Virus record (IMG/VR): IMGVR_UViG_3300025000_000229
Location: 1 to 39,641 of that record
Reading direction: 5' to 3' (one strand)
DNA length: 39,641 nucleotides
Source: a virus
Made by a program: the position numbers and the translations under genes. The notes under the pieces are model-generated. The model saw only the letters and a program-made list of their open reading frames with translations, did not search any database and was not told the DNA's origin. Shown here one piece after another: positions 4,048 through 37,003 of this stretch; positions within the stretch are counted from its first letter, which is position 1; every line of letters starts with the position of its first letter.

Positions 4048-4695
4048 ATGGCGACGATTACCGCAGAATCAGTGATGAACAAGGCAAGGAAGATCCTTAA
4101 TGATGCGGGGTCTGTGAGGTGGGATAACGCTGATTTGTTGGGCTGGTTAAATTCCGGACAGAAGGAAATCGTCCTGTATAAGCCGAATGCGAATACCGAG
4201 ACTGCCGTCATAACTATGGTCGAGGGGAGCGTCCAGACTGTCACTGGTCTTCAGTTCATCAGGATCATCAGCAACGTCGCGTCAAATGGGACGACAGCCA
4301 CAAGTGTTCCGAGTCCGGTTGAACAGTCGGTGCTGGATGGACTTTACCCGAACTGGATGGCCGCGACTCCGAACGCGACCCCCAAGTATTACTGCTTCGA
4401 CCGGAAACTGCTGAAGACGTTTTTTGTCTATCCGCCGCAACCTGCTTCTCCCGGTAAGGTGAGAATCCTTCAGTCGGCGGCTCCTGCGGTGATTCTTATC
4501 GACAACATCTCTTCGGGAATGATTCTCGATGACATCTACGAGACGCCTCTTATTGATTACATCGTCTATCGGGCCTTCTCCGAAGATACCGAAGTTCTCG
4601 ATGCTGCCAAGAGTGATGCGTTTTTCCAGAAGTTTGTCGCAGCAATGGGCGGTAAGGCTCAAGCCGAAACCATTGGAGAGATGAATGCGAATTAG
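4048..4695 (+). CDS. Connector / tail tubular A-like protein (DUF6682-like)
   Basis: GAGGTAACTA precedes the ATG. The 215-residue product begins with a helical SVMNKARKILNDAGSVRWDN segment and continues WLNSGQKEIVLYKPNA, hallmarks of a family of podovirus connector/stopper proteins (DUF6682-like). Length fits the family. It probably forms the ring between portal and tail tube in the virion. It overlaps the next gene by 11 bases, and that start's GGAGAG site is inside it. Confidence 0.65.
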   Translation: MATITAESVMNKARKILNDAGSVRWDNADLLGWLNSGQKEIVLYKPNANTETAVITMVEGSVQTVTGLQFIRIISNVASNGTTATSVPSPVEQSVLDGLYPNWMAATPNATPKYYCFDRKLLKTFFVYPPQPASPGKVRILQSAAPAVILIDNISSGMILDDIYETPLIDYIVYRAFSEDTEVLDAAKSDAFFQKFVAAMGGKAQAETIGEMNAN

Positions 4696-6271: not shown

Positions 6272-8406
6272 GCCTACCCGACCTCCCTACCATACCGTCG
6301 AGTCAGGAGCCGAATACCAGACGGGCGCTTGACATGCTCCGCGTCCTCTTCAATTCGCTAAAGAAGAAGGGGGGCTTGGTAGCGGTCAATGACTTGGTGA
6401 ATGCGGGACTGGTGGACTCTTCACTTCAGGCGACTGGTTCCGAGTATGACGGCGCGATCCCCCCCGCTATCGTCGGTTTGACGGCGACAGGAGCGTTCCG
6501 AACCATCATCCTGGAGTGGGATGCGGTGAACTTCAGAAACTACGCCTACGTCGAGATTTGGCGCTCTACGACTAATGACTTGGGAACTGCGGTAAAGATC
6601 GGCACGACGACAGCAACGCTTTACTCCGACCTTCCGCCGAATGCGTCAATGGCCGTGAACTATTACTATTGGGTGCGGGTCATTAGCCGGTCGAACATAA
6701 TTGGACCCTTCAACGCGACTTCAGGGACTTCCGCAACGACTGCCAATGACCCTGCGTATGTCATCGAAATCCTCGAAAACCAGTTGACCGAAAACGAACT
6801 GTACGGAGATTTGCAAAGCAGAATCAACCTCATTGACACGACAGGGACCGGTCTTATTGACCGGATGATTTCCGTCGAGGCAGGGGTGGAGACTGCCCTT
6901 GCCAACGGAATCACGACCGCGCCTTTTGATGTGAATGAAACCTACATCGTGGGTGCGCTCGTTTCCTATGACAATTCAATCTACAAATGTATTCTCGAAA
7001 TCAACACGCCTCCCGCGCCTGTCCCGACGAACGAAACGTATTGGGTTCTGATTGGGAATTACGCGACTCTTGCTGACATGGTTTCGGCACAAGCGGCGAG
7101 TCTTACGTCTCTGGATAGCGAAGTAGATGGCATCGGCAGTACGGTTGCCGCTCATTCAGGGTACATCACGGCGCTTGAAACAACTGTCAACGACCCCGCT
7201 ACCGGAGTAACTGCGACATCGGGTGCCTTGACGACTCTCACTTCAAGAGTGACCAATACCGAGAACACCAACACGTCGCAGGGTTCAGCTATCACGGCGC
7301 TTGAGTCCACGGTGAACAACGGGACTACTGGAGTGACCGCGACTGCTTCTGCATTGTCTACGCTGACAACAAGAGTGACTAATGTAGAGGGGGTGAATAC
7401 TTCTCAGGCATCAAGCATCTCTTCTCTTACATCATCCGTAAGCTCAAACGCGGCAGCTATCATCAGTGAGGCGAGCACTAGAGCAAGTGCAGACAGTGCC
7501 TTGTCGTCGTCTGTTTCGACGCTTCAAAGCACGGTTAGCGGTCACACTACTTCCATTCAGACCAACGCTACTTCAATCGACGGCATCCAAGGCAAGTACA
7601 CCGTCAAGATCGACAACAATGGGTATGTGACCGGCTACGGGCTGATTTCGACGCTGAACAACGGAACGCCCACTTCCGAGTTTGCCGTTGTTGCGGATAA
7701 GTTCACAATCGCCCCGGTGGCGACGAATGGCGATGCAGATGATGGTTCGCCCTTCTTTCATTTGACAACTACCACGACTGTTGACGGGGTGAGTCTGTCT
7801 GCTGGCACGTACATGAAGACCGCGTTTATTGGTGATTTGACTGTAAAGAATGCGAAGATTGCCAACGAAGCGGTAGACACTTCTAAAATTACTAACCTTG
7901 CTGTTACTACCGCAAAAATGGCCGACCTTGCGGTGACGACTGCAAAGATGGTTGACGCTGCTATAACTACAGCCAAAATAGGCGATGCTCAAGTAAATAC
8001 ACTAAAAATAGGAGCGAACGCTGTTACCGTACCTATCGGCGTAGCATACGGTCCTGAATCTAAGGTTGCCAACTGGACTTTTTTGAATGCTACGGTCTGG
8101 ACTACGCTAACATCAGCAACTATTTCTTCTGAAGGCCAGCCGGTACAAATACTTGTATCAGTTGTTACTGACAAATCGCAATATACACACTTTCGGATTG
8201 TGAAGGATTCCGATGCGTCAGTGCTTTACGATAGTCTGTCAATAACGGGAGTTGTGTCTACGACTACGGTGGTAAGGTTGGATGTTTCGCCAGCGTCGAG
8301 TGAGACGTATACCGTCCAGTATTTGTCAAGTTATTCAGTGTTGGGAGGCGGGTCGCAAACTCTATCCCTCAGAGTCTATATTGGTCTATTAGGAGTGAAG
8401 CGATGA
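6268..8406 (+). CDS. J-like receptor-binding / central fibre protein with FN3 and carbohydrate-binding module
   Basis: Domains in order: N-terminal helical anchor (1-60); FN3 domain (about 68-160, LTATGAFRTIILEWDAV ... YYYWVRVISR); a CBM5/12-like carbohydrate-binding module (about 219-264, YIVGALVSYDNSIYKCI ... YWVLIG); two tandem repeats of about 42 residues with TGVTAT and SRVTN/TRVTN cores (about 300-390); a helical stalk; a lambda-J C-terminal type domain (EFAVVADKFTIAP, residues 470-485); then AVTTAKM-type ten-residue repeats and a beta-rich tip. It is likely the host-recognition tail tip. The FN3 plus J-type domain is unusual for a short-tailed phage. Confidence 0.8.
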   Translation: MSLPDLPTIPSSQEPNTRRALDMLRVLFNSLKKKGGLVAVNDLVNAGLVDSSLQATGSEYDGAIPPAIVGLTATGAFRTIILEWDAVNFRNYAYVEIWRSTTNDLGTAVKIGTTTATLYSDLPPNASMAVNYYYWVRVISRSNIIGPFNATSGTSATTANDPAYVIEILENQLTENELYGDLQSRINLIDTTGTGLIDRMISVEAGVETALANGITTAPFDVNETYIVGALVSYDNSIYKCILEINTPPAPVPTNETYWVLIGNYATLADMVSAQAASLTSLDSEVDGIGSTVAAHSGYITALETTVNDPATGVTATSGALTTLTSRVTNTENTNTSQGSAITALESTVNNGTTGVTATASALSTLTTRVTNVEGVNTSQASSISSLTSSVSSNAAAIISEASTRASADSALSSSVSTLQSTVSGHTTSIQTNATSIDGIQGKYTVKIDNNGYVTGYGLISTLNNGTPTSEFAVVADKFTIAPVATNGDADDGSPFFHLTTTTTVDGVSLSAGTYMKTAFIGDLTVKNAKIANEAVDTSKITNLAVTTAKMADLAVTTAKMVDAAITTAKIGDAQVNTLKIGANAVTVPIGVAYGPESKVANWTFLNATVWTTLTSATISSEGQPVQILVSVVTDKSQYTHFRIVKDSDASVLYDSLSITGVVSTTTVVRLDVSPASSETYTVQYLSSYSVLGGGSQTLSLRVYIGLLGVKR

Positions 8407-12248: not shown

Positions 12249-15200
12249 ATGGGACTGCTCGACTCGTTACCGGATGAAAAGGGCGGGATGCTGGACTCGT
12301 TGCCTGATGAACCTGTCGCCAAGGTCGAAAAGCCAAAGCGTTCTCTTATCGGTGAGTTTGGTGCCGGCATCGCTCAAGGGGCGCTGCAACTCCCTCAGAT
12401 GGTGGGTGGAGTTACCAAGTTGGCCGGCGATGCGATAGGCAGTGAGGCGGTCAGTGCCGTGGGCAAAGACGCCATAAATTACTGGGGAGAGAAACTGAAG
12501 CCGTATGGTGCGGAAGTCCCTTCATTCACCGACATTGAAGACGCGGGAGACGCTGCTAAATACGTGGCTCATGGTGTTGGTGCTCTCGTCCCGACCGTCG
12601 CTGCGTCCGTTGTCTCTGGTGGCATCGGTGCCGGCCTTGCGAAAGAAGGCGTCAAAAGGGCGATTGCTAAGGAAATCGTCAAGCGCGAACTCAAGCACGA
12701 AGCTGTTGACCTCATGGCAAAAGGTGCTGTCAAGGAAACGGTAAAGAAAGCCGTTACAAGGGGGGCAATAGCCGGGGCCGGCGCTGCGAGTTACGGCATG
12801 GAAGCAGGGAGTATCTATACCGATCAAGCCGAGCAGGGCATCAAGAAACCGTTGAGGGCGGCGTTGACGGCGGTTCCTGCGGCGGCACTCGATGTCATTC
12901 CTGAGTTAAGGATCCTGTCGAAGATCCCTGCGTTCAAGGTCTTGCAGGAGACCCCCTTCTTCAAGACTGCCGAAGGACGCAACGCCCTTGTCAGAGGTGG
13001 TAAAGAAGCTCTCAAGCAAGGCGGGGCGGAAGGCGTCACCGAATTTGCTCAGACGCTTATTGAGCGGTACGGCGCGGATAAAGAAGTGTTCTCGAAAGAA
13101 GGGTGGTTGGAAGCTTTCAACGCTGGCATCCTTGGGGGGATTGGTGGTGGCATGATGGGTGGTGTTGCTGGTTCAGTACAGAAGCCGGCGACTGACACGA
13201 ATCTGCTCAAGGACGAAGAGACGAGCGATATTGCAAAAGAACTTCTGAGAGTCAGGAATCAGCCGGTTGTGCCAAGCGTACAGACCGTAACAGAGCCGCC
13301 AGCAATGACGGTTCCAGCCTACGAAGGTCCGGTAATGGATGCCGAAGCACCGACTCCCGAAGACCTGGAACTTCAGTCGATGCAGAGAGAGAACGAAAAC
13401 TACCGTCAGCAGCAGTTGATGGACAAGCAAGACATCCCTACTGTCGAAGAGAAACCTGTTCCGCAAGTCCCTTCCTCATTCAAGACGGCAGACGGCAAAG
13501 TGACGGTGAAGACGAAGGCCGTTGGTGAAGGCGTCTTCCAGGTCGAGACAACGAACATTGACGAGTACGGTCACAAGAAGACGTTTGTTCAAGAGATGAG
13601 CGCGGAAGACGCCGTTAAGCACATCGACAACGTAACTCCCCCGGTGACGAGGGATCAATATCTTCAGGTCAAAGGAGTCAATGATGAAGAAATGTCCGAA
13701 GTGCAAACATCAAATGCTGAAGGCGACCAAAGTCTGTCCGAAGTGCAAAACGAAGGTTCCGTAAATGATAGTCCAGAAACCGGAGGGATGGTACGTCCAG
13801 TCGGAGAAGGGGCGCAACCTGGGGGGGGCGTATCAGACAGCGCAGCAAGCGCACTCCCGACAGGCGAAGGTGGAGGAATGCTGCCTCAGGGATCGACCGT
13901 CGAAACCGCGCCATCCGAAGAAAGTAAAGCAAGTGCTGAAGCGTCCAAAACGGCTCCCAAAGTAGTCATCAAGTCTCTCTCCGACCTTCCCCCTGGACAA
14001 CATGAGATCAAGGGCGCAGGGACGTTCCTCGTTGACGACAAGGGAAGAGTGAAGATTCTTCGTGGGACGAAACTTGAAGCAGTCGATCCAATGAGACGGA
14101 AGCTGGCAATTGACAAATACAATGGGATAGTCTTAGCTGAGAAGCAGAAGGCGAATCGTGAAGCGTTGAAAGTCGGTAAGACGAAGCAGAAGCAGTTGGC
14201 CGAAGAAGCGCGGGGCATTGCTGAAGACGATGCTCCCTACCTCCGTGCCGCCTTACAGAACGTCAAGGATGCTGACTTTGGCAAGATCAGTGTCGATGGA
14301 AACGAGACTGAAGCTACCTGGTCAACCTTTGGCGCGTTGATTCCGTACATCAGGGGTACGGGTATCAGTAAAGCTGACGCAGTGAAGATCATGTCGGAAG
14401 CGGTTGAGACGGGTAAACTGCCTCCTGAGAAGAACAAAGCAGAGAGAGGCTTGGTAGAGTCTGCCTTGAAGCATGAAAAGGAACGCATCGAGGAAGCGGA
14501 GAATCGTGTTGAGACTACTGACGAGCGGCTTGTCCAGCAAGAGATAGCAGAAGAAAGAGACACAGTAGAGGGTGGGGATACGAGTTTTGAATTTGGGGAA
14601 GAACCTGAATCTTCACTGCCTTTGATGGAAGGCGATCAATCCAAACTCTTCCCCACTCCCCCGACCTTTGGCAAGAAACCGCAAGGGACAGGAACCGTCT
14701 CTGAAACGCCGATGCTCACGGAAATGAAGGAGCGGGAAGCGGAGTCGAAACAAACTTCAATGACCCTTGACATGCTCGGGATGCAGCAGATTTACGAATC
14801 GTTGACCGATGGCGTTATGAAGGAACACGCGACAACCGCTTTGGAGAAAGTCCGTAACACTCTCGACAATCCCGGTGGCCTTGGGACATTGGGCAATTGG
14901 AAGCAATACTTGGCGAAGCGTTACAAGACTCTCGGGACGTTATCAAGCATCAAGGACTTCACGCATCAGATAACGAAGACCTTTGGTAAAGCCTCCGAGA
15001 ATGACCGTAAAGCTATTTTCGAGTTCCTGACCGATAAACAGGGTGATGCGTCAACCATCTCTCCCACTCTCAGGGAAGAATCGATCAAGATGAAGCAGAT
15101 GATCGAGGACATCGGGGATAAACTCGTCGCCTACGGGCTTATCCCTCAAGACGTGATGGACGCAAACCGGGGCGCGTACCTCCCTACCGTCTACCTCAAA

Positions 15201-17627
15201 CACATCCTGGGCAAAGAGGGCTTTCAGGCGATGGGTTCAGGGAAGAAACTCGACCTGACCTACACGAAGAAGAAGTACCTCCGAAAGTCTCTCAAGGAAC
15301 AAGGTCTGACTGAAGAAGAAATCGACCTGTTTATGAGAACGCAGATGGGGGAGATCAAAGATCCTGCCTATCTCTTGGCGAGGGCGTTTTCCATTCCTTC
15401 GAGGGACATGGCAATCATCGACTGGCTGGCGGAAATCGCTACGCATAGCGAATGGGTGTTGCCGAAGTCTCTCATCGAGTGGACTCATTCTGAAAACCCA
15501 GTCAGGAGATCAGGAAGAGTCGAGTACAAGAAGAACGCTGACGGTTCTTTTGACCTGAAGATTCACAAGACGAAGATGGTCGAGACGAAACACACTGTTA
15601 CGTCTTCTGCTCTTGGGAAACTTATCGGCAGCGACAAGATTGCCGACTACATCAAGGCCGGTAAGGGAAAACAGCAGACTCGCAAGGATGACGTAAAGGG
15701 GAAGGTCGTTTACAAACCGACTCCCTGGAAGAAGGTCGGGCATATTCAGTACAAGCTCAATCCTGACGGGACGTTTACCCTGAAGATCAAGGAAAAGGTC
15801 ACGTCTGTTGACGAGTTGAGCGGTGTCAAAGACCTCAAGAGTCTGGTAGGGGAGAAGAAGGCCGATCAGATTCTTAACGACGAAGGGAAGGCGTTGGGGG
15901 GGAGGAAGGTCACTCCGTTCTGGCTGGCTGCGGAAGCGAAGAGAATCAGGGAGATGATCCCGCATCTTCCCGAAGCAGATAGAGCCGAAGCGAAGGAAGT
16001 TGCAGACAGGATGCAGCGGCTTTCCGACGAAGCAGACGTGAGCGGCAAACTCCCTGACGATTACCGACAGATGCCCGACTCTGCGAAGTACGGCGCTCTT
16101 AGAGGCTTGGTAGTTCGGAAGGAGATTTACAGCGACCTGGTAGGCAATATCAACATCTCCATCGGTGAAAAGTCTCTGCCTGAAGAATGGCTCGGGACGG
16201 GCGGGAAGATCACGAAACTGACCGGCATGTGGAAATGGGCGAAGGTGGCTGCCAATCCTCCGGCACAGGTGAGGAACTTTATCTCCAACCTCGTCCTGCT
16301 CAATCTGTCGGGAATCCCGGTGTATCGTGTGCCGATCAGGATGGCGCAAGCCGTTAAGGAAATCAGGTCAAACGGGAAGCACTGGCAAGTCGCTAAGAAG
16401 TACGGTGTCAAGGAAGCGACCTTCTCGAATACGGAGTTGGCACGAATTGAAACAGCCCTCATGGAGATGGCGAACAGAGACTACGGGTTTACGCGAGGCA
16501 TGAAGAAACTTGCTTCTTCTCTGGCGGCTCTTGATATGAAAGGGGCTAAAGAGGGTGCAAGCGCGGCGTTTAATCCGGTGAAACTTGCCGGGGCGAAGGT
16601 AGTCAATGCAACCGGTGATGTTTATCAGTTTATGGAGGCGATGGGTAAAACGGCAAAGATCATTGACGAGATGGAGAACGGTAAATCTGGTGAAGAGGCG
16701 GCAATGGAAGCGCATAAATGGCTCTTCGACTACTCACTCGTAGCTCCCGGTGTCAAGTATCTCCGCAATGCGCCGATAGGCATCCCCTTTATTACGTTCA
16801 TGTCGAAAGTTTTACCTCGTCTTGTCGAGGTTGCCGTTACAAAGCCCTGGCGCTTCACCCCATATGTAGCTATAGCTTACGGGATGCAAGCGGCTGTAGC
16901 GGGAATGCTGGACGTTGACGACGATGATCTTGACAAGCTGAGAGAAGCGTTGCCGGAATGGATCAGGGAGAAACAGCATGTCTATTTCCTCCCCTATAAA
17001 GACGACGCCGGCAGATGGCAGGTTGTAGACTTGGGCTACTTCTTTCCGTGGACACAATGGACTACGTTTGCCGAAGATGTTGGAGAAGGCGACTTGTGGA
17101 AAGCGATGCGGGGGTCTGGAATCCTGGGCGGTCCTCTTCCTGATTTGATCGTCGCGCTCAAGACCAACGTCGATCCTTTCACGCAACGGCCTATCATCGA
17201 TAAGTACGCTGACCCTGCCGAAAAGGCTGCTCAGATGTTCGGCTACCTCTATCAGATGGCAATGCCTCCCTGGTTGACGCAACGAGGAACGGCGGGAAAA
17301 CTGTATTCTGCTCTGTCTGAAAACGTGGACAAGTTCGGACTGCCGAAAGCGACTGTCAAACAGGCGGGTCTTTCAATGGCTGGCATCAATCTTTCCGGAT
17401 TTGACCCTGCCTTGACGAGAGGACAGAACCTCAAGAGGATGGACTTCGAAATCAGCGAAGTGCAGAGACAGGCAAAGAGTGAATTGCAGAACAAGAATCT
17501 TTCCGACTCTGAACGCGAAGAGATCCGCGAGAAGTTCAAGAAACGCATCCAGAAAATGAACCTCAAGAAAATAAAGTATGCTGCCAACTCGATGCCGAAG
17601 AACGAGTCATTACTACAAAGGAGATGA
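12249..17627 (+). CDS. Giant ejection / polyvalent-type virion protein (1792 residues)
   Basis: The N-terminus repeats LDSLPDE twice, then has hydrophobic glycine-zipper segments (about 35-65, 105-140, 175-190, 295-315). Residues about 360-600 are acidic and low complexity, probably a disordered linker; two small genes are nested here in another frame. A helical globular domain follows (from about 830). Near 1086-1225 is a tandem imperfect duplication with GRVEYKKNADGSFDLKI and GHIQYKLNPDGTFTLKI. From about 1328 (WAKVAANPPAQVRNFISNLV) to 1560 it resembles a large-polyvalent-protein-associated (LPD38-like) region. It probably enters the host with the genome. No lysozyme motif is recognised. 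The frame is uninterrupted. Confidence 0.75.
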   Translation: MGLLDSLPDEKGGMLDSLPDEPVAKVEKPKRSLIGEFGAGIAQGALQLPQMVGGVTKLAGDAIGSEAVSAVGKDAINYWGEKLKPYGAEVPSFTDIEDAGDAAKYVAHGVGALVPTVAASVVSGGIGAGLAKEGVKRAIAKEIVKRELKHEAVDLMAKGAVKETVKKAVTRGAIAGAGAASYGMEAGSIYTDQAEQGIKKPLRAALTAVPAAALDVIPELRILSKIPAFKVLQETPFFKTAEGRNALVRGGKEALKQGGAEGVTEFAQTLIERYGADKEVFSKEGWLEAFNAGILGGIGGGMMGGVAGSVQKPATDTNLLKDEETSDIAKELLRVRNQPVVPSVQTVTEPPAMTVPAYEGPVMDAEAPTPEDLELQSMQRENENYRQQQLMDKQDIPTVEEKPVPQVPSSFKTADGKVTVKTKAVGEGVFQVETTNIDEYGHKKTFVQEMSAEDAVKHIDNVTPPVTRDQYLQVKGVNDEEMSEVQTSNAEGDQSLSEVQNEGSVNDSPETGGMVRPVGEGAQPGGGVSDSAASALPTGEGGGMLPQGSTVETAPSEESKASAEASKTAPKVVIKSLSDLPPGQHEIKGAGTFLVDDKGRVKILRGTKLEAVDPMRRKLAIDKYNGIVLAEKQKANREALKVGKTKQKQLAEEARGIAEDDAPYLRAALQNVKDADFGKISVDGNETEATWSTFGALIPYIRGTGISKADAVKIMSEAVETGKLPPEKNKAERGLVESALKHEKERIEEAENRVETTDERLVQQEIAEERDTVEGGDTSFEFGEEPESSLPLMEGDQSKLFPTPPTFGKKPQGTGTVSETPMLTEMKEREAESKQTSMTLDMLGMQQIYESLTDGVMKEHATTALEKVRNTLDNPGGLGTLGNWKQYLAKRYKTLGTLSSIKDFTHQITKTFGKASENDRKAIFEFLTDKQGDASTISPTLREESIKMKQMIEDIGDKLVAYGLIPQDVMDANRGAYLPTVYLKHILGKEGFQAMGSGKKLDLTYTKKKYLRKSLKEQGLTEEEIDLFMRTQMGEIKDPAYLLARAFSIPSRDMAIIDWLAEIATHSEWVLPKSLIEWTHSENPVRRSGRVEYKKNADGSFDLKIHKTKMVETKHTVTSSALGKLIGSDKIADYIKAGKGKQQTRKDDVKGKVVYKPTPWKKVGHIQYKLNPDGTFTLKIKEKVTSVDELSGVKDLKSLVGEKKADQILNDEGKALGGRKVTPFWLAAEAKRIREMIPHLPEADRAEAKEVADRMQRLSDEADVSGKLPDDYRQMPDSAKYGALRGLVVRKEIYSDLVGNINISIGEKSLPEEWLGTGGKITKLTGMWKWAKVAANPPAQVRNFISNLVLLNLSGIPVYRVPIRMAQAVKEIRSNGKHWQVAKKYGVKEATFSNTELARIETALMEMANRDYGFTRGMKKLASSLAALDMKGAKEGASAAFNPVKLAGAKVVNATGDVYQFMEAMGKTAKIIDEMENGKSGEEAAMEAHKWLFDYSLVAPGVKYLRNAPIGIPFITFMSKVLPRLVEVAVTKPWRFTPYVAIAYGMQAAVAGMLDVDDDDLDKLREALPEWIREKQHVYFLPYKDDAGRWQVVDLGYFFPWTQWTTFAEDVGEGDLWKAMRGSGILGGPLPDLIVALKTNVDPFTQRPIIDKYADPAEKAAQMFGYLYQMAMPPWLTQRGTAGKLYSALSENVDKFGLPKATVKQAGLSMAGINLSGFDPALTRGQNLKRMDFEISEVQRQAKSELQNKNLSDSEREEIREKFKKRIQKMNLKKIKYAANSMPKNESLLQRR
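13681..13764 (+). CDS. 27-residue double-CPKC zinc ribbon nested inside the giant gene
   Basis: In the +1 frame relative to the giant gene, AAAGGAG (13671-13677) precedes tandem ATGs by 3 and 6 bases. The product has KKCPKCKHQ and VCPKCKTKVP: two CPKC knuckles 14 residues apart, the classic four-Cys zinc ribbon of small phage proteins. The chance of a strong ribosome site, a start and a perfect double CxxC in an unused frame is low. The stop TAA directly abuts the next nested ATG. The main frame over this stretch is a Ser/Glu-rich linker. Confidence 0.7.
   Translation: MMKKCPKCKHQMLKATKVCPKCKTKVP
13765..13965 (+). CDS. Small basic phage protein (SEKG-x-NLGG-Y type), nested inside the giant gene
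   Basis: The ATG follows the nested zinc ribbon stop with no gap (TAAATG). The 66 residues begin MIVQKPEGWYVQSEKGRNLG and continue GAYQTAQQAHSRQAKVE, very like the widespread short phage proteins of the form Y-x-V-x-S-x-K-G-K-x-L-G-x-Y-x-[ST]-x-x-x-A-x-x-R-L-x-x-V-E. The last 25 residues are strongly basic (PKKVKQVLKRPKRLPK). Resemblance to a known family in a non-main frame is the best evidence that this is a real overlapping gene or a recently captured one. Function is unknown. Confidence 0.65.
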   Translation: MIVQKPEGWYVQSEKGRNLGGAYQTAQQAHSRQAKVEECCLRDRPSKPRHPKKVKQVLKRPKRLPK

Positions 17628-28448: not shown

Positions 28449-29543
28449 ATGAAAGACACACACATTTTTGCGGAAGTCCTCGAACCAGAAGCACTGGAAC
28501 AGTTTGAAAGTGCAATGTCTCAATCGTTCGCCGTCAAAGGCGCTCTGATGCCTGACGCTCACGCTGGGTACTCGCTTCCTATCGGGGCTGTTGTTGCGAC
28601 CGATGGTGTGATTCTACCTGCATGGGTGGGCTATGACATCGGCTGCGGTATGTGCGCCGTGCCTACCTCGTTTCGACGGGCAGACGTGACTGAGAACGCC
28701 GAAAAGATTTTCAATAGCATCTATCGGAGCGTTCCGGTGGGCTTTCGCCACAACCAGAAAGATTCAGTGTGGGATTACTCCGCTCTGCCGCACTCTGCGG
28801 CTCTTGACGTGATTTTTGGTAAGAACGGCCTGAAGCAGCTTGCTTCATTAGGTGGCGGAAACCACTTCATTGAAATCGGCCACGATGAAGAGGATGAAAT
28901 CTGGATCATCATTCACTCTGGCTCGCGGGGGATCGGCCACGCCGTAGCAACCCATTACATGAAACTGGCATCCGGGGACGGCAAGGCTCGTGAGGGGCAT
29001 TTCGGTTTTGTCGTCGGTTCGGCAGAAGGCCGCAACTACATTGACGATCTTGCTTTCTGCCTTGCTTTTGCCCTGGAGAACCGCCATCAGATCATCCAGC
29101 GGGTAGTGCGGGAAATGGCGCATTACTGCGAAGGCTCTGCCGATTGGGGCCGGTTGATAAATCGGAACCATAACCACGCCGAACTGAAAGACGGGCTGTG
29201 GATTCACCGTAAAGGGGCCACCCACGCCGAGGCTGGAATGATGGGAGTCATCCCCGGTAACATGCGGGACGGCTCTTTCATCGTGGAAGGAAAGGGCAAC
29301 CCTGCCGCGCTCTGGTCGAGTTCGCACGGGGCGGGCCGGGTGTTGGGCCGCAAAGCGGCACAGCGTAGCCTGTCCGTGGAGCAGTTTACCGATACCATGC
29401 GGGGGATAGTTGCCAAAGTGGACGCTGAGACGCTGGATGAATCGCCTTTCGCGTACAAGGACATTTTCCAGGTAATGCGGCAACAGGCCGACATGGTGGA
29501 AATCAAGCATCATATCCGCCCCCTTATCAACATCAAGGGCTAG
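28449..29543 (+). CDS. rtcB: RNA ligase RtcB (3'-phosphate to 5'-hydroxyl)
   Basis: RtcB joins 2',3'-cyclic-phosphate or 3'-phosphate RNA ends to 5'-OH ends using GTP and Mn. All signature blocks are present: MPDAHAGYSLPIGAVVA, VGYDIGCGM (C66), SLGGGNHFIEI, HSGSRGIGH, NRNHNHAE, HRKGATHAEAG, GVIPGNMRDGSFIVEGKG and WSSSHGAGRVLGRK with the guanylylated H293, and the end IRPLINIKG. AAAGGAAGGG precedes the ATG. At 364 residues it is a compact form (E. coli about 408). It stands among replication genes without rtcA or archease nearby. Probable role: reseal tRNAs cut by host defence nucleases (inference). Confidence 0.95.
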   Translation: MKDTHIFAEVLEPEALEQFESAMSQSFAVKGALMPDAHAGYSLPIGAVVATDGVILPAWVGYDIGCGMCAVPTSFRRADVTENAEKIFNSIYRSVPVGFRHNQKDSVWDYSALPHSAALDVIFGKNGLKQLASLGGGNHFIEIGHDEEDEIWIIIHSGSRGIGHAVATHYMKLASGDGKAREGHFGFVVGSAEGRNYIDDLAFCLAFALENRHQIIQRVVREMAHYCEGSADWGRLINRNHNHAELKDGLWIHRKGATHAEAGMMGVIPGNMRDGSFIVEGKGNPAALWSSSHGAGRVLGRKAAQRSLSVEQFTDTMRGIVAKVDAETLDESPFAYKDIFQVMRQQADMVEIKHHIRPLINIKG

Positions 29544-31145: not shown

Positions 31146-31273
31146 TTCTCTTCCTCGTTCAAACTCTCGATGATGACCTGCTCTGCTTCTTCGAGGGTAT
31201 ACCCACACGACCTACAGTGATTTGGGAAGCCATGTGTTTTGCACAACGGGCAAAAATGACCTTTATTTTTCAT
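31142..31273 (-). CDS. 43-residue zinc-ribbon microprotein
   Basis: AAGGA lies 7 bases before the ATG, which overlaps the HNH gene stop (ATGA). The product has CPLC (8-11) and CRSC (20-23) separated by KTHGFPNH, a textbook small zinc ribbon, then an acidic helix (TLEEAEQVIIESLNEEE). It may be an adaptor binding another protein or nucleic acid. Its TGA overlaps the next start. Confidence 0.7.
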   Translation of the reverse strand: MKNKGHFCPLCKTHGFPNHCRSCGYTLEEAEQVIIESLNEEEK

Positions 31274-31908
31274 GGCTGGTCCTTATGTGCCGGTTTATAA
31301 CATTTCGGGTGGTATGCGTTGTCGTTATCATGAATAATCTTGTCGCGTATTCGGTTACCGCAAAGAGAACAGCTAAAATCTTTTCGCTCCCCTTCTTTTA
31401 CTCGTTTACCTCTTATTGGGGCGGTAGGTTGGTATTTGTGGAGTTCAGTCAAATGTTTCCAGTTTTTACTGTTCAAGATGTAGCCAACGTGTCTTTTTGA
31501 AATACCATATTTTTCTGCAATCTCACGCTGGAACATTGATAAACCAATTGCCCTGATTTCAAGTATTTGTGCATCGGTCAATTTAGCACGGCTGTGTGTT
31601 TCCCCTTTGCCGTGGTTGCCCCTGCCCTTTGCTTCTTTGTCAAGAAGGTTGTCATAATTGGAACCTAAAAACAGATGATCAGGGCGAACACAAGAAGGAT
31701 TGTCGCATTTATGTAAAACGCAAGTCCCGTGATAGCCTTCGCCTTCAGGTATCGGGCCGTATGTTAGTTGCCATACAACGCGGTGCGCTGATTGGGTTTT
31801 GCCCTCAAAGTCGAATCTCCCATACCCTTTATTATTCTTAGCTGCCAACCACTCCCAACAATCATTTGTCCTTGGTCCTTTCTTTACTTTTTCCCAAAAC
31901 AACTTCAT
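31270..31908 (-). CDS. HNH homing endonuclease with C-terminal HTH and zinc ribbon (HNH1)
   Basis: This 212-residue protein has a Trp-rich N-terminus (FWEKVKKGPRTNDCWEWLA), an HNH_3 core (AHRVVWQLTYG ... CVLHKCDNPSCVRPDHLFLG), then a helix-turn-helix DNA reader (AKLTDAQILEIRAIGLSMFQ ... KYGISKRHVGYIL). The last 40 residues add CSLCGNRIRDKI with YHPKC, a Zn site not found in HNH2. Its start overlaps the RHH gene (ATGA). It likely makes a site-specific cut to spread its own gene. Confidence 0.88.
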   Translation of the reverse strand: MKLFWEKVKKGPRTNDCWEWLAAKNNKGYGRFDFEGKTQSAHRVVWQLTYGPIPEGEGYHGTCVLHKCDNPSCVRPDHLFLGSNYDNLLDKEAKGRGNHGKGETHSRAKLTDAQILEIRAIGLSMFQREIAEKYGISKRHVGYILNSKNWKHLTELHKYQPTAPIRGKRVKEGERKDFSCSLCGNRIRDKIIHDNDNAYHPKCYKPAHKDQP

Positions 31909-32048
31909 TTTTTGGCCTCACTTCCCCGGTTGTCAAAGTACATGCTGACGGCGCGGCGGATCAGATCGGATACAGCAAGGCCGGTTTCTTTCTTCTCTTC
32001 TTTTAGCTTATCTACCATTTGTTTCGGCAAATTGATTGTTACAACCAT
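31905..32048 (-). CDS. Ribbon-helix-helix (CopG-type) regulator, RHH1
   Basis: AAAGGGGTGCACT precedes the ATG. The 47 residues fit the RHH fold exactly: strand VVTINLPKQ, helix MVDKLKEEKKETG and helix LAVSDLIRRAVSMYFDN. Such dimers bind short dyads. It is coupled by ATGA to the HNH gene downstream and sits below a promoter region with a 13-bp inverted repeat, so autoregulation of the RHH-HNH pair is likely (inference). Confidence 0.85.
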   Translation of the reverse strand: MVVTINLPKQMVDKLKEEKKETGLAVSDLIRRAVSMYFDNRGSEAKK

Positions 32049-32120: not shown

Positions 32121-33341
32121 TTATGCACTAGCGCGGATGCGTACCACCTCTCCAAACGGGGGAGGGTTGGCTTGATAGCCTCCAAGGTTAACCCATAGCA
32201 CCGGGATTCCTGGGTCAGTTCCGAATGAACTACAACACATATCAGTCAAAACGATGATGCATGCCGGGGGCTCTTCGAGGGTGGCGACGTGTTCAAAGAT
32301 TGGGGCAAAGTCGGTGCCTCCTCCTCCTTTAGCGGTCAATTTAAGCGGCCGCATATCGGGTGTTATAATTTCGGTCTGAGTAATCCGCGTGTCGAAACAA
32401 GAGTCAATAACGGTCATATTGTATTGCCCCATCATATCATCGAGTTCGCTTGCAAATTGGTTTTGGAATTGATCAGTGTACGTGCTCCCCGATGTATCAC
32501 GGTAGGTGGCTGCCGCTCCTATTTCCTGGTTGTAGAGTGAGGGGAGGATAAGACCCCTTGAAAAATAACGCGGGTTCGGGCGCTTCCAGGTGTAGTCATT
32601 TCGGGCGGTGCGGTCAATGAACTGTCTAAGCGCTTCTCGCCAATCGACTACAGGCTCTAATAGTTCGTCAACGTACCTTGCAAGGCTTCCCGGCAATTTG
32701 CCTGCCATTTTCGCGGCTTGTGCTGCCTGCTGCGTCGCTATTTTCCAGTCCTGCGCGTTCTGCGCCTTGTCTGATTCGCTTGCTGGCTGGCCGTCTTTCC
32801 CTGGCAAGTCTCGTACCTCTCCACATTTACCGGGATCGCCTAAATTTGGCTCCTGCGGTCCTTTGCCTTGCTTCCCTGGTCCGTTGCCTGCTCCGTTTCC
32901 TTTTCCCGGTCCTGGGCCTTGCGGCGGCTCTGGTAACAGGTTGTAAATTGCTTCGGCTTCCAGGTTTGCAAAGGCGGGTGACAATAGCGTGTCTTTCGGG
33001 AGTTGCATGCCTGCGGCTTCGATCAAGGGATTAATTGCATAATCGGCGGCAATGTTCCAGTGTTGCGGGTCGCGTTCTCCCCTGCGGCATTGGTGAGCAT
33101 TGGCAAGGTGCATTACTTCATGGCACAAAACGCCTTTCAGCTGGTCAATCGGTAGTGAGTCCACAAAGGCGGGGCAATAGCCGATTGATACTCCATCTGT
33201 CCACATGGTGCGCTGCTCGGGGTTCGGGATGTAAAGCATGTCATCCTCTATCAACTTGGTTTTCAGGGCGAGTGAACCGAAAAACGGTTGGTCAAGGATC
33301 AGGGCACTCCTTGCTTTTCTCATTTTCTGTTCTGCTGTCAT
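32121..33341 (-). CDS. Metallopeptidase with VWA-like domain (DUF2201 type)
   Basis: AAGGAGGCAAACCA precedes the ATG, which overlaps the HNH2 stop. The N-domain is a Zn metallopeptidase: CHEVMHLANAH gives HExxH with H74, E75 and H78. Residues 138-175 are a Gly/Pro linker (PPQGPGPGKGNGAG). The C-domain is VWA-like with a full MIDAS set: DTSGS near 290, GGGGTDFAPIF and VLTDMC. This architecture (peptidase plus VWA, COG3864) usually pairs with a MoxR AAA+ ATPase, here at 35972. Likely substrate-unfolding and processing pair; target unknown. Confidence 0.88.
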   Translation of the reverse strand: MTAEQKMRKARSALILDQPFFGSLALKTKLIEDDMLYIPNPEQRTMWTDGVSIGYCPAFVDSLPIDQLKGVLCHEVMHLANAHQCRRGERDPQHWNIAADYAINPLIEAAGMQLPKDTLLSPAFANLEAEAIYNLLPEPPQGPGPGKGNGAGNGPGKQGKGPQEPNLGDPGKCGEVRDLPGKDGQPASESDKAQNAQDWKIATQQAAQAAKMAGKLPGSLARYVDELLEPVVDWREALRQFIDRTARNDYTWKRPNPRYFSRGLILPSLYNQEIGAAATYRDTSGSTYTDQFQNQFASELDDMMGQYNMTVIDSCFDTRITQTEIITPDMRPLKLTAKGGGGTDFAPIFEHVATLEEPPACIIVLTDMCCSSFGTDPGIPVLWVNLGGYQANPPPFGEVVRIRASA

Positions 33342-33832
33342 TGGTTTGCCTCCTTATCTGGAACATGATTCCAGCGTTTGTATTGCCGGATACGTGCAAT
33401 AGTGTGGCGGCTAACTCCATAATCTAGCGCAGTATCGGTATGGCTTCTTTTGTCTGCTCTGATTGCAATAATTTGAGTGTTATCTAAGCGCGAAAAAGGG
33501 TTATTTTGCCCCTTTAGATTAGGTGCTCTCCCTTTAGTGTTGCGGTCTTGCATGTTGGCTAAATGATTTCCTAAAAATAAATGATCTGGATTCACACAAA
33601 AAGGATTGTCACATTTGTGGCAAACACAAATACCGTGATACCCTTCACCTTTTGGTATTGGGCCTCGGTACAATTCCCAAGCAATACGATGAGCAAGAAA
33701 TATCTTTTTATTCATGCGCATTTGTCCGTATCCAGTTCTTTCAAATATTGCGCCTTCCCATAACCAGCAACCTGACATGGGTTCAGGTACATATTTATCG
33801 TCAAACCTTTTTTGTAATGATTCACCTTTCAT
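33338..33832 (-). CDS. HNH homing endonuclease (HNH2)
   Basis: This 164-residue protein has the same layout as HNH1 without the zinc-ribbon tail: KYVPEPMSGCWLWEGAIFER, then AHRIAWELYRGPIPKGEG and CVCHKCDNPFCVNPDHLFLG (HNH core), an NUMOD-like stretch (KGQNNPFSRLDNTQIIAIRA) and an HTH (TDTALDYGVSRHTIARIRQY). The start overlaps the RHH2 gene (ATGA) and the stop overlaps the metallopeptidase start, so it is stitched into the operon with no gap. HNH1 and HNH2 cores are clearly related. Confidence 0.9.
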   Translation of the reverse strand: MKGESLQKRFDDKYVPEPMSGCWLWEGAIFERTGYGQMRMNKKIFLAHRIAWELYRGPIPKGEGYHGICVCHKCDNPFCVNPDHLFLGNHLANMQDRNTKGRAPNLKGQNNPFSRLDNTQIIAIRADKRSHTDTALDYGVSRHTIARIRQYKRWNHVPDKEANQ

Positions 33833-33966
33833 TGCTTGCGCTCCTTTTCTTTAAAGTAAAGGTCAAGGGCGCGGCGTACGATCTCGGACATGGTTAAACC
33901 TGTTGCCTTGCGTTCCTCTTCGATCTTGGTTAGTAGCGGCTTTGGGATTCCTACGTGTGTTGACAT
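33829..33966 (-). CDS. Ribbon-helix-helix (CopG-type) regulator, RHH2
   Basis: AAGGAGAATACACC precedes the ATG. The 45 residues read strand STHVGIPKP, helix LLTKIEEERKATG and helix LTMSEIVRRALDLYFKE, a clean RHH fold and a relative of RHH1 (shared ATGL...SE/SDI/L-RRA). It has its own promoter with a dyad in the spacer and is coupled to HNH2 by ATGA. Likely an autorepressor of the homing cassette. Confidence 0.85.
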   Translation of the reverse strand: MSTHVGIPKPLLTKIEEERKATGLTMSEIVRRALDLYFKEKERKQ

Positions 33967-34005
33967 GGTGTATTCTCCTTAAATGGTATGTACTGCAATG
34001 CACCA

Positions 34006-34034
34006 TAAATAGGACAGAATATGTCCCGTGTCAA
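34006..34034 (-). promoter_or_regulatory. Promoter of the RHH2-HNH2 cassette with spacer dyad
   Basis: On the minus strand a perfect TTGACA (34029-34034) is 17 bases from TATTTA (34006-34011). The spacer holds GGACA-TATTC-TGTCC, a 5-bp dyad fit for an RHH dimer. Transcription would start about 35 bases before RHH2. Confidence 0.7.
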
Positions 34035-34038
34035 GAAG

Positions 34039-34083
34039 TTATCCACATACCGGGATTGCTCCCGGTTTCGCCGTCGCTACGGC
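34039..34083. other. DnaA-box match and two short hairpins after the DUF3150-like gene
   Basis: TTATCCACA (34039-34047) is a perfect DnaA box. Next come CCGGGA/TCCCGG (34050-34065, loop TTGC) and GCCGT/ACGGC (34070-34083, loop CGCT). Neither stem has a T-run, so on the minus strand they may slow RNase or polymerase rather than terminate. Confidence 0.4.
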
Positions 34084-34095
34084 TCGTCAGTGTGG

Positions 34096-34953
34096 CTAGG
34101 CTGCATTCATCCAGCCTGCCATCTTATTCATGATCTCGGCACAATCGTTTGCAACGGTTTGCCGGGTCTTCTTGTCAGTTCTCAATGTGTCGGGTTCGTA
34201 TGCGGTCAATCTGGCCGATACTTCTTTAGTCAAGCGGTCTAGTTCGGCGTCTCCTGCGATATTGAGGCGGGGTAACAGGTCCACCAATTCAACGATATTT
34301 CCAACAAGAGAATCCCTGAAAATAGCATCGGGAGTGCTTAACCGTTCTGCCATTGCTGAAACTGCGGTATGCAGGCGGCTCCATACGTCTCTCATGGCTG
34401 CGTCTTGTGCCTGCTGGCTTCTGGCGTCAAGTTCGGCCTTTATCCTGCTCACTTCGGCGTCTCCAAGGTCTACGCGGAAATCTGACGCATCTGGAAGCGG
34501 GTCAACCTGCGTTTCAAAGGAATACTTGCTTACAATATTCTCTGCTGAAGGGTAATCAGATTGTACGAATAAGGAATTGAGGCGTATTTTAGCATCCTCG
34601 ACTAATGCGGGGTACTCGCTTAAAAACTCGGTGACTGCTGCCTGAAATGCGGCTTTATGCTTTCGCATCCCTTCGGAATACGCAAAAAAGTTCGCGGCTG
34701 GCAAAATGCGTGCTCCGTCGTCGTTCCAAGGGAGGGTTTGCGCATAGTGAAAAGTTCGGGCGTCTCCTGCTGCGCTCTGTACCTTCTTTAAGGCATTGGT
34801 GGCGATAAGGGCTTTATTGTAGCGTCCTGCGTCGTTTGAAGTCTGATATTCCTCTTTTACTTTTGCGGTGGCGGTTTTGTCTATGCGTCTTGCACTCCAC
34901 ACTGATATCGAGAGTCGGGCAAGCATGGCTTTTTTGCTGATTACGTGTGTCAT
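34096..34953 (-). CDS. DUF3150-like phage protein of the MoxR/VWA module
   Basis: AAAGGAGACAACACA precedes the ATG at 34953, preferred over a longer frame. The 285 residues begin ISKKAMLARLSISVWSARRI, DKTATAKVKEEYQTSNDAGR and continue helical (ALIATNALKKVQSAAGDART, FFAYSEGMRKHKAAFQAAVT). I associate this opening with a phage family (DUF3150-like) found beside MoxR ATPase and VWA genes. It may be the adaptor or substrate of that pair. Coiled-coil ends support a binding role; no catalytic motif is seen. Confidence 0.7.
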   Translation of the reverse strand: MTHVISKKAMLARLSISVWSARRIDKTATAKVKEEYQTSNDAGRYNKALIATNALKKVQSAAGDARTFHYAQTLPWNDDGARILPAANFFAYSEGMRKHKAAFQAAVTEFLSEYPALVEDAKIRLNSLFVQSDYPSAENIVSKYSFETQVDPLPDASDFRVDLGDAEVSRIKAELDARSQQAQDAAMRDVWSRLHTAVSAMAERLSTPDAIFRDSLVGNIVELVDLLPRLNIAGDAELDRLTKEVSARLTAYEPDTLRTDKKTRQTVANDCAEIMNKMAGWMNAA

Positions 34954-35165
34954 TGTGTTGTCTCCTTTCGTCTCCGGTCTTGTTGCCGGGGTTTGAATAC
35001 GTTGCATTTGATTTCGCAAAACTGACAGGGGCGCTTATCTACTGCAAAATACAGGTCTATCAAAAAATCGGCTCCCCTTGGTGTTTCGAGCATCCTACAG
35101 CCCTTTGTTACGAGGTCGCAAAGGTCGGGCGCTGCCTTTCGCCTCCTTTCCCTAAGTCGTACCAT
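34950..35165 (-). CDS. Small basic Cys-containing protein
   Basis: GGGGG lies about 10 bases before the ATG. The 71 residues begin basic (MVRLRERRRKAAPDLCDLVT), have a hydrophobic middle (FLIDLYFAVDK) and then CQFCEIKC, a CxxCxxxC knuckle, and end basic (FKPRQQDRRRKETTQ). The TGA overlaps the DUF3150-like start, so it is probably translated with it. No family named. Confidence 0.65.
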   Translation of the reverse strand: MVRLRERRRKAAPDLCDLVTKGCRMLETPRGADFLIDLYFAVDKRPCQFCEIKCNVFKPRQQDRRRKETTQ

Positions 35166-35221
35166 GTCATGAATCCCCCTTTCGATAATGTCCAGTTGGT
35201 GGCTGTGACTGCTTATCTGAA

Positions 35222-35240
35222 CCGTTAAGAGGCTTAACGG
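35222..35240. repeat. Perfect 8-bp inverted repeat, 3-base loop
   Basis: CCGTTAAG-AGG-CTTAACGG lies between HNH3 and the 71-residue gene. No T-run on either strand, so a terminator is unlikely. TTGACC lies at 35251-35256 on the minus strand upstream of it, so it may be an operator inside a minus promoter or the HNH3 target region. Confidence 0.5.
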
Positions 35241-35257
35241 CTCAATAAACGGTCAAG

Positions 35258-35905
35258 CTAGATTCTTTTCTTGTTAAAATTTGCTGACTCTTGTGGCGTC
35301 ATAATCGGCGTTGTGAATGCCTGCTCAACTGTCCATCCGCATTTATCGAGGCGAGCCATTAACGCGAAATAGGAAAGGCTTAAAAACTCGCTCCATTGTT
35401 TCAAGTTCTTAGTTTCTCCCCTGAAAGTGATAAGCCGGTTATTTCTCATGTTGTTCATCTGTGTTTTTTGATTGGCCCATATGCAATTACTAGGCTCGTA
35501 ATTACCGGCGGTGTCTTTGCGTTCTAGGGTCATTCCTTCTGGTCTGTCTCCCATGTCGGCAAGGAAATTTTCAAAAGATTCCCAACGCTCACAAACTGTA
35601 ATTCCTCTCTCCCCATACCATTTGTATTGTCGGGCGTTTGGGTCTTTGCAGCGTCTACGCATTGCTAGCCAAGTGCGGTAAGCAGGGGTTTTTGATAAAC
35701 CGTGTGTGCGGTGAATTTGGGCGGTAGTTTCACGCATCAGGCAACCACATGATTTAGTCCCGGTGCGTAAATTGCCGCCTGATACAATAGCAATATTTCC
35801 ACAATTACACTGGCATTCCCAACGGATCACACCTTTGTCAATTCGGGCGATTCTTGAAACAGTTAAGCGTCCGAACACTCTTCCAGTTAAATCAATTCTT
35901 CGCAT
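35258..35905 (-). CDS. HNH/AP2-type homing endonuclease (HNH3)
   Basis: GAGGTGAAGAA precedes the ATG. The N-terminal part is a zinc-containing DNA reader (GRVFGRLTVSRIARIDKG, WECQCNCGN, SCGCL). The middle has the typical phage pattern YRTWLAMRRRCKDPNARQYK, YGERGITVCERWESFENFLA, TLERKDTAGNYEPSNCIWAN; the C-terminal KQWSEFLSLSYFALMARLDK is an AP2/NUMOD-like DNA contact region. Unlike HNH1 and HNH2 it has no partner RHH gene. It lies between the MoxR gene and the module's other members. Confidence 0.85.
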   Translation of the reverse strand: MRRIDLTGRVFGRLTVSRIARIDKGVIRWECQCNCGNIAIVSGGNLRTGTKSCGCLMRETTAQIHRTHGLSKTPAYRTWLAMRRRCKDPNARQYKWYGERGITVCERWESFENFLADMGDRPEGMTLERKDTAGNYEPSNCIWANQKTQMNNMRNNRLITFRGETKNLKQWSEFLSLSYFALMARLDKCGWTVEQAFTTPIMTPQESANFNKKRI

Positions 35906-35916
35906 TTCTTCACCTC

Positions 35917-35954
35917 GGGCATGTATTTGGAAACTCGCTTACGTTAACATGCCC
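35917..35954. repeat. 8-bp inverted repeat between MoxR and HNH3 genes
   Basis: GGGCATGT (35917-35924) and ACATGCCC (35947-35954) are perfect reverse complements 22 bases apart in the 66-base gap. No T-run follows. It may be a processing hairpin that separates MoxR and HNH3 expression. Confidence 0.4.
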
Positions 35955-35971
35955 ACGCATAAAGGCACAAG

Positions 35972-37003
35972 TTAAATTAAAAGCGAACTGTGGACGCTGG
36001 CCCATCGGACGAATCCGCGTGAACTGGTAACGGTCGGGGCAAGTTTCACAGCGTCACGCATCAAAAGGACCGAAAATTCAGCGGGTAAACGGTCGCAATA
36101 CTCCGCAAGTCGATCAATTGTGTTATCGCTGGCCTTCCTCGCAAGACTGCCGCAAAGGGCGTACAGGGTCGCGGGGTCGGTCGGTACTTCTCCTGCCTGG
36201 GGATTCATCAAGATCGCGTCAGGGTTCGGAAGGTTGCGACAGATACGCAAAAAACCTAAAAATTCGGCTGCAAAGGCTTCACCGGCTGCACCTGCAATTA
36301 CGGGGTATTCCAGCTCTTGGGCGATTCCGAGGTTTAAGATCCTGCCTACGTTGGCAACAGTGCGGGGGCAAGGGCTGTTAAACAGGTCGGGGGATGGCTT
36401 GAAGTCGTGCAAAAGGTTCGGGCGGAAACGTACAAAAGAAATCAACTCGGTCGGCATGTTGTTGGACAATGCCCAGTTGCACCAGCTGTCAAGGTCGGGT
36501 TGGAGTTCTACGATAGTTGTAAAGCGGGATTTAAACGGCTCAAGCATTCCAGTCACGCCGGCGCGGTCCTGCCTCCTGTTGGTTGCTGCAATGAACGTAA
36601 CAAAAGGGCTAATCGGTGTCCCGTCGCCGGTCTGACGAGCTAACACAAGATTCATAAAACTAAGCTGGACGGCTGGCGCTGCGCCTCCTACATCGTCAAG
36701 GAAACAGACAAGCGGTTTTTGGGCTGAAATCAACTGTTTGAGGAATCCAAAAGGGATAAAATCAGCAAGTTGCTGGTTAGCTTCGGTATCAAACCAAGTT
36801 GCGCCTAACCCTTTCGGGTCGGTAGGGTCTGACGTGGCACAATACACAGGCAAAAGGGTTGCCTCTGCTTGTGCGGTCGCGTGGTTGACAACATCCGTTT
36901 TGCCGGTCCCTGGCGCTCCCTGGATCAATACCGGCTCTCTGGCGGGTATCATCGTTGCTAGAAGCGTCTCAAGCTGTTTCGGGTTTAATGCGATCTCTGA
37001 CAT
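35972..37003 (-). CDS. MoxR-family AAA+ ATPase
   Basis: GGAGGATTAA precedes the ATG. Walker A is GAPGTGKTD (29-37); Walker B is LVCFLDDVGGA (about 112-122); sensor 1 and arginine-finger regions are FIAATNRRQDRAGVTGMLEP and FKSRFTTIVEL. The C-terminal lid (from about 215) is helical. At 343 residues it is typical for MoxR. MoxR ATPases act with VWA proteins to mature or remodel complexes; the VWA/metallopeptidase at 32121 is the clear partner, on the same strand and in the same operon. Confidence 0.9.
   Translation of the reverse strand: MSEIALNPKQLETLLATMIPAREPVLIQGAPGTGKTDVVNHATAQAEATLLPVYCATSDPTDPKGLGATWFDTEANQQLADFIPFGFLKQLISAQKPLVCFLDDVGGAAPAVQLSFMNLVLARQTGDGTPISPFVTFIAATNRRQDRAGVTGMLEPFKSRFTTIVELQPDLDSWCNWALSNNMPTELISFVRFRPNLLHDFKPSPDLFNSPCPRTVANVGRILNLGIAQELEYPVIAGAAGEAFAAEFLGFLRICRNLPNPDAILMNPQAGEVPTDPATLYALCGSLARKASDNTIDRLAEYCDRLPAEFSVLLMRDAVKLAPTVTSSRGFVRWASVHSSLLI

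Follow-up and report, generated by a model that had tools for sequence, protein, structure and literature searches.

Two cellular systems, NorQ/NorD and RavA/ViaA, pair a ring of the MoxR-class AAA+ ATPase with a partner carrying a von Willebrand factor A (VWA) domain; both have known cellular clients and neither is known to include a peptidase domain. For NorQD, cryo-electron microscopy has led to a model in which the VWA domain sits in the ring (PMC13036017). Among viruses, the group 2.2 jumbo phages encode a pair made of a MoxR ATPase and a metallopeptidase-vWA protein, for which virion assembly has been proposed (Iyer et al. 2021, PMC7824862), and the core genes of N4-like phages include homologues of both (PMC4193335). 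Here we analyse IMG/VR virus record IMGVR_UViG_3300025000_000229, a contig of 39,641 nucleotides (the window), whose right part encodes on the minus strand a MoxR ATPase, a DUF3150-like protein and a protein joining an HExxH metallopeptidase to a VWA domain. The phage MoxR and peptidase-VWA pair is thus already known; what appears new is a triad common to phages and plasmids. An earlier note made from this sequence had called the job of the module in phages not established, which holds for its function and overlooks the pair's published description, with its virion-assembly proposal, and its place among the N4-like core genes. In the literature searched, no publication was found that mentions DUF3150 or joins it with phage MoxR and VWA proteins.

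The locus resembles further known systems to differing degrees. It shares with the jumbo phages a MoxR gene adjoining a VWA protein whose N-terminal domain is a metallopeptidase, but here a DUF3150-like gene joins the pair as a conserved third member, and this virus is no jumbo phage; the accessible text of the jumbo-phage description names neither a third gene nor plasmid copies (PMC7824862). Phage N4 gp24 and gp25 are likewise a MoxR-like ATPase and a DUF2201-type VWA protein with HExxH and DxSxS motifs, although a 168-base gap, with no DUF3150 gene, separates them. These are core genes of their group whose function has long been missing in a classical E. coli phage, and the accessible text of the CRISPRi-ART publication yielded no N4 result. 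RefSeq N4 gp25 (locus L166, 4165-5307; loci gathered for comparison carry L numbers) and many relatives bear the wrong name 'HNH endonuclease'. The triads of phage MinM2 and a Planktothrix phage have the same genes in the same order, annotated as MoxR, DUF3150 and VWA-like, but are only 26-32% identical and carry short hypothetical open reading frames (ORFs), with no HNH gene, between MoxR and VWA. Triads on Burkholderiaceae plasmids also keep the three genes in this order, with MoxR up to ~46% identical; unlike the present one they lie beside PRTRC genes, type IV secretion system (T4SS) genes or other plasmid genes, and one of four VWA proteins has no HExxH. Finally, ORF101-103 of plasmid pCAR1 and their IncC and SXT relatives bring together an AAA ATPase, a DUF3150 protein and a VWA protein, the latter being NorD/CobT-like.

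From the gene set, motifs, VWA fold, conservation, spread and position near replication genes, all computed here, we propose, with a probability of about 0.42, that the triad encodes a three-subunit MoxR-class AAA+ remodelling machine of mobile DNA (lytic phages, conjugative plasmids and integrative elements), acting on the DNA-handling protein complexes of the element before virion assembly. By analogy with NorQD, MoxR would form a ring on which the VWA domain docks, relaying ATP-driven motion to a target that would be held by the metal site of the VWA domain (the metal-ion-dependent adhesion site, MIDAS) together with the DUF3150-like protein and pulled apart; in most copies the fused zinc-peptidase domain may then cut it. 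As to the class of target, presence on plasmids speaks against a virion client and the neighbouring genes suggest DNA-handling complexes, host defence being the chief alternative. Found on plasmids as well as in this virus, the triad probably serves mobile DNA within the cell rather than the building of virus particles.

Conservation of the triad among viruses was assessed by scanning viral contigs with two alignments, of which DUF3150 gave 42 loci and VWA gave 447 relatives, the best 80 being kept. The seeds came from triad-bearing loci of this record's branch, so that the co-occurrence counts are valid near that branch and are no census of phages; some loci are near copies or come from the same contig, and identical and short rows were removed before residues were counted (16 of 118 VWA and 18 of 118 MoxR rows were skipped). 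The whole triad is present in 38 of the 42 DUF3150-anchored loci, three others being cut by the locus end and L055 having DUF3150 only. Of the best 80 VWA-anchored loci, 76 have MoxR, 53 have DUF3150 and 51 have all three, while the four loci that have no MoxR start at or just before the gene. The three genes always share one strand, in the order MoxR-DUF3150-VWA in 44 of the 51 complete loci. The earlier note would have given up its module had the three genes never co-occurred in other phages or had homologues lost the peptidase motif; neither is the case, and 98 of the 102 distinct viral proteins retain an intact HExxH motif.

An annotated phage collection (50,697 records) gave 516 matches to VWA, 364 to MoxR and only 4 to DUF3150, the last because of fast divergence and because N4-like phages have no DUF3150. 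Another 22 phage loci have MoxR and VWA genes but no DUF3150 match, and there the gap between the two was nearly always filled by a single protein of ~210-275 amino acids; no such gene stands there in N4, phiFa, SABI and CRP-7. Thirteen of 16 aligned gap proteins match the Pfam family Nmad5 at E <= 0.01 (best 5.3e-10), and the Nmad5-like family occurs at L090, L096, L100, L101, L104, L106, L108, L111-L115, L118, L120, L123, L125-L127, L130, L135 and L136. A single family uniting the DUF3150 and Nmad5-like third genes was rejected (hhalign probability 0.8%). Nmad5 is a predicted DNA-modification protein, mutations in which let Dhillonvirus escape the Tmn defence (PMC11846954); the idea that it is itself an anti-Tmn protein was dropped, as the anti-Tmn function belongs to another gene and nmad5 is the site of escape mutations. 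The family phrog_511 was found in one of seven records searched.

The peptidase-VWA protein is a DUF2201-type metallopeptidase-VWA fusion, with an HExxH motif, a MIDAS and matches over the cut-off both to the metallopeptidase family PF13203 (E 2.4e-58) and to the VWA-like family PF09967 (E 4.1e-24). In its AlphaFold2 model, residues ~272-406 resemble VWA domains of solved structure (Z up to 12.4); these structural matches cover the VWA part only, and for the N-terminal domain, a putative zincin, the best PDB sequence match at the HExxH region is a weak one to MJ1213 (E 0.03). PHROG 1314, which the protein matches at 1.4e-94, is likewise mislabelled 'HNH endonuclease'. The residues singled out by the earlier note are in place, namely H74, E75 and H78, the full MIDAS (DxSxS at 282-286, T343 and D367) and K35 of the MoxR Walker A motif. 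Of the 102 distinct viral VWA proteins, 98 have H74, 99 have E75 and 100 have H78, and all have D282, S284, S286, T343 and D367. The HExxH motif is absent from L028, L031, L047 and L048; L028 and L031 are viral triads that keep the DxSxS motif, with gene order DUF3150-MoxR-VWA. All 14 distinct proteins from bacterial contigs have DxSxS but no more than 9 of them an intact HExxH, and one of four plasmid proteins has no HExxH. Judged by these motifs, the metal-site grip is universal and the cutting site usual, though not invariable; because HExxH is lost in some copies while DxSxS stays, cleavage would not be needed in every copy.

The MoxR protein matches Pfam AAA_5 over the cut-off (E 1.5e-7) and PHROG 1297 'ATPase' (E 3.5e-60). 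Its Walker A motif (residues 29-36, 36896-36919) is intact, K35 being kept in 99 of 100 distinct viral homologues, and with the neighbouring VWA protein it would make a MoxR-vWA chaperone/co-chaperone pair. A Pfam scan of the operon genes gave no VMAP, FtsH or beta-propeller third component of the kind that marks MoxR-vWA ternary conflict systems (bpMoxR 17.4 bits against a cut-off of 27).

The third protein is more divergent, scoring below the Pfam cut-off for PF11348 (E 0.0026; 17.5-17.9 bits vs 24.9). Ten of 25 homologues match that model at E <= 0.01 (best 1.9e-7), and comparison with the pCAR1 member gave an hhalign probability of 57% (E 1.1e-4); on this sub-threshold score, these partial homologue matches and this distant likeness we call it DUF3150-like. 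Its AlphaFold2 model, with a predicted local distance difference test score (pLDDT) of 93 and a predicted template-modelling score (pTM) of 0.87, is compact and rich in alpha helix, with a beta part at its N-terminus. The closest viral fold match carries the name DUF3150; the VIA rows are helical bundles with Z up to 9.8, within the range classed as common, and the PDB gave no match at E <= 0.001. The protein is 92-98% identical to close relatives in each third, and its start is most likely the ATG at 34953 behind a GGAG site rather than the TTG at 35019. The Pfam DUF3150 model found nothing in six phage records, and equally nothing in 14 controls, which makes that search uninformative. Protein gp569 of Bacillus phage G was considered as a DUF3150-like protein and rejected, being 19% identical, coiled-coil-like and no homologue. 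The 71-amino-acid ORF upstream (34950-35165) has a cysteine cluster and matched no Pfam family.

The earlier note had treated the module as a phage one, which does not hold, for the triad also occurs on plasmids and on bacterial contigs resembling mobile elements. A DUF3150 scan of bacterial genomes gave 25 loci, 20 of them with all three genes. The loci inspected are flanked by RepB primase, RadC, toprim primase, resolvase, transposase and ParB-like genes, and these neighbours suggest that the bacterial triads reside in mobile elements. In a plasmid collection of 72,556 records, DUF3150 had 44 matches, VWA 71 and MoxR 57; among the matches listed, 29 of 30 DUF3150 plasmids recur among the 40 VWA plasmids, with the genes 70-119 bases apart. 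The order MoxR, DUF3150, VWA was found in four plasmid regions inspected, two of which adjoin PRTRC and T4SS/TraD genes and two other plasmid genes, with toprim, methyltransferase or ParB among the neighbours; on a Simplicispira plasmid other genes stand between MoxR and DUF3150. A DUF3150 tree, built from 69 rows of viruses, 14 of bacterial contigs and 4 of plasmids, mixes the three sources, with 12 label changes against a minimum of 2, and its starred branches alone force at least 4 changes for 'virus'. By this mixing, the module has passed repeatedly from one type of element to another.

Triads that are more remote extend the range further. That of pCAR1 comprises an AAA ATPase, DUF3150 (E 8.3e-92) and a NorD-like VWA protein; its MoxR and VWA genes were noted in 2009 in a group conserved in R478, Rts1, SXT and R391 (PMC2642839). 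Matches to the pCAR1 DUF3150 protein occur in 1118 plasmid records, of which 969 are predicted to be conjugative, although only 17 matches cover 80% of it. In the IncC plasmid p13ZX36-200 (L250, 146-8138) AAA, ssb, bet, exo, DUF3150 and VWA genes form one cluster, so that the triad encloses recombination genes like those of lambda Red. Transfer of SXT fell at most 10-fold after deletions in the traN-traF region (bet, exo, s067, s068, s070) and about 100-fold after deletion of s063 (PMC2791158; gene names as in SXT). The CobT- or NorD-like VWA partner in pCAR1 and IncC, together with a MoxR protein that has a CbbQ/NorQ C-terminus, would also suit a chaperone that inserts a metal or cofactor, like CobS/CobT or NorQ/NorD, into a phage or plasmid metalloenzyme. 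We consider this very improbable, as no common metalloenzyme gene lies beside the triads inspected and the VWA protein of this record's branch is a peptidase fusion instead.

The position of the VWA gene was compared with that of replication and virion markers in 29 records, hand-picked among the longer ones and measured by linear distance, of which 13 had no replication marker over the cut-off and 23 no terminase match. In 12 of 16 records no more than 10 kb separate the gene from DnaB_C or DNA_pol_A, where random placing would give 5.3 (P 0.0006); for a terminase the same holds in 2 of 6 records, with 1.5 expected. This bears on the proposal made for jumbo phages, that the machine is a chaperone for assembling or processing the virion (PMC7824862). 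It has a published precedent in the tail of archaeal ATV (PMC7824862), and the PA5oct MoxR gene bears an 'ESI-MS/MS' note; yet the same triad is found on plasmids, which make no virion, the VWA gene lies near replication genes, and N4 genes 24 and 25 belong to the middle class of that phage's transcripts (PMC4193335). Since the triad is on plasmids and near replication genes, a role confined to the virion is unlikely, and we hold the chaperone proposal to be improbable. The suggestion in the earlier note that a phage version could process a virion protein is accordingly weakened as a general job, the plasmid and mobile-element copies counting against it; these copies and the DUF3150 partner shift the question from which virion protein is processed to what phage and plasmid DNA both need at entry.

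Several observations weigh against a remodelling machine for DNA-handling complexes. The pCAR1 and IncC VWA protein differs in kind, having no peptidase domain, and the DUF3150 protein there is only distantly related to the present one. In 4 of the 16 records the VWA gene lies at least 14.7 kb from a replication marker, in 2 of 6 it lies within 10 kb of a terminase, and the PA5oct note is of the kind borne by that phage's structural proteins. Gene neighbourhood is no proof of function, and no experiment in the publications found links a phage copy with a DNA complex as its target.

The two putative motor subunits are mosaic among near relatives. Residues 34-150 of MoxR are 42-59% identical to close relatives and both flanks 94-97%; because residues 106-150 normally rank among the best-conserved stretches of the protein, yet are divergent here, the core block looks imported, its nearest known source being L021 (61% and 84%). 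This chimera was seen in the present record only, that is, in one assembled contig. In the partner protein, the VWA domain is 47-52% identical between two allele types in near relatives (47-49% for that of this record) vs 87-99% in the peptidase domain, and the type of this record was confirmed by the independent contig L009. In NorQD, the region matching the MoxR core block and the VWA domain form the two sides of an interface (PMC13036017). Linked exchange of the two was rejected, as L009 has the same VWA type and the other MoxR type (readable from residue ~104).

Such exchanges resemble a change of specificity, and would fit a counter-defence machine that extracts, unfolds and cuts host defence complexes attacking incoming DNA in both phages and plasmids; the earlier note, too, had suggested that the module could disarm a host defence. 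That the triad is common to two classes of element which defences target, and that it lies close to DNA-handling and early or middle genes, would fit as well, making this the strongest alternative, though an unlikely one. A PADLOC search gave ten weak AAA-domain matches, to MoxR only (best E 0.0014), with no link to defence; core-gene status in N4-like phages suggests a general need over an arms race, and the two allele exchanges occur without demonstrated linkage. The same PADLOC result led us to reject an origin of the triad proteins in defence systems. The remodelling machine proposed above could be generalised, a step that is somewhat more doubtful still: lytic phages and self-transmissible plasmids would share one interchangeable AAA+ machine that protects or processes incoming DNA, with a fixed MoxR/VWA motor and an exchangeable third subunit (DUF3150-like, Nmad5-like or none), its motor core and VWA grip being swapped domain-wise between close relatives so that recombination retunes the target.

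The earlier note had placed the three genes in one operon. They are real, lie on one strand at the coordinates it gave (Table 1), and are interrupted by HNH genes after MoxR, after DUF3150 and after VWA. With their HNH domain, and as insertions missing from contigs of near relatives, these three have the features of free-standing homing endonucleases. The gene at 35258-35905 is absent from L009, L010 and L012 and sits at the moxR stop, where the last moxR codons are recoded with the same SSLLI ending kept, while its own stop coincides with the former moxR stop of relatives. Homing endonucleases are expected to protect their own insertion site, and the recoding fits this expectation. The HNH_3 protein encoded at 31270-31908 is 44% identical to that at 33338-33832, and each gene is preceded, with a 4-bp overlap, by a short ORF that looks ribbon-helix-helix-like by eye, the two being 39% identical. 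That this arrangement is a widespread cassette was rejected, none of 80 HNH loci having a match to the short ORFs under a weak two-sequence model. In PA5oct, too, a putative homing endonuclease stands between MoxR and VWA (L167, 5437-6933).

Given these insertions, the operon might be mainly a landing pad for homing endonucleases, with mosaic alleles as by-products of homing or of metagenome assembly; the exchange of the MoxR core in a single assembled contig would agree with this. However, among the 110 other loci L078 alone has a recognisable HNH relative close to the triad, which is conserved nonetheless, and the VWA type recurs in the independent contig L009, so that we regard this as the least probable of the explanations. 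On the same count we rejected the idea that genes related to these three have entered the operon repeatedly, and because only this record and L078 among 111 loci have recognisable ones, the three HNH genes are local guests.

Table 1. Features of the triad region and of the left part of the window
Feature	Position	Strand	Remarks
MoxR-class AAA+ ATPase, 343 amino acids	35972-37003	-	Pfam AAA_5, PHROG 1297
MoxR core block, residues 34-150, P-loop to sensor 1	36554-36904	-	apparently foreign to its clade
Free-standing HNH endonuclease at moxR 3' end	35258-35905	-	PHROG 374, E 1.8e-71
Small ORF, 71 amino acids, between MoxR and DUF3150	34950-35165	-	DNA aligns with close relatives
DUF3150-like third component, 285 amino acids	34096-34953	-	Pfam, homologues, AlphaFold2
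45-amino-acid ORF, ribbon-helix-helix-like by eye	33829-33966	-	4-bp overlap with next HNH gene
Free-standing HNH_3 endonuclease	33338-33832	-	PF13392, E 9.7e-12; stop overlaps VWA start (ATGA)
DUF2201_N metallopeptidase (residues 3-269) fused to VWA (273-406)	32121-33341	-	HExxH at 33108-33122
VWA domain, two allele types in near relatives	32124-32525	-	
47-amino-acid ORF, ribbon-helix-helix-like by eye	31905-32048	-	4-bp overlap with next HNH gene
Free-standing HNH_3 endonuclease, 3' of VWA	31270-31908	-	PF13392, E 1e-12
Internal virion protein	4685-6271		left part, with virion genes
Tail fibre	6268-8406		left part
Structural protein	12249-17627		left part

The middle part of the record holds exonuclease, replication-initiation and primase/helicase genes and rtcB, the last encoding an RtcB-like RNA ligase at 28449-29543. 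The same virus also has, at 1956-2576, a match to the PHROG 'enoyl-CoA hydratase/carnithine racemase-like'.

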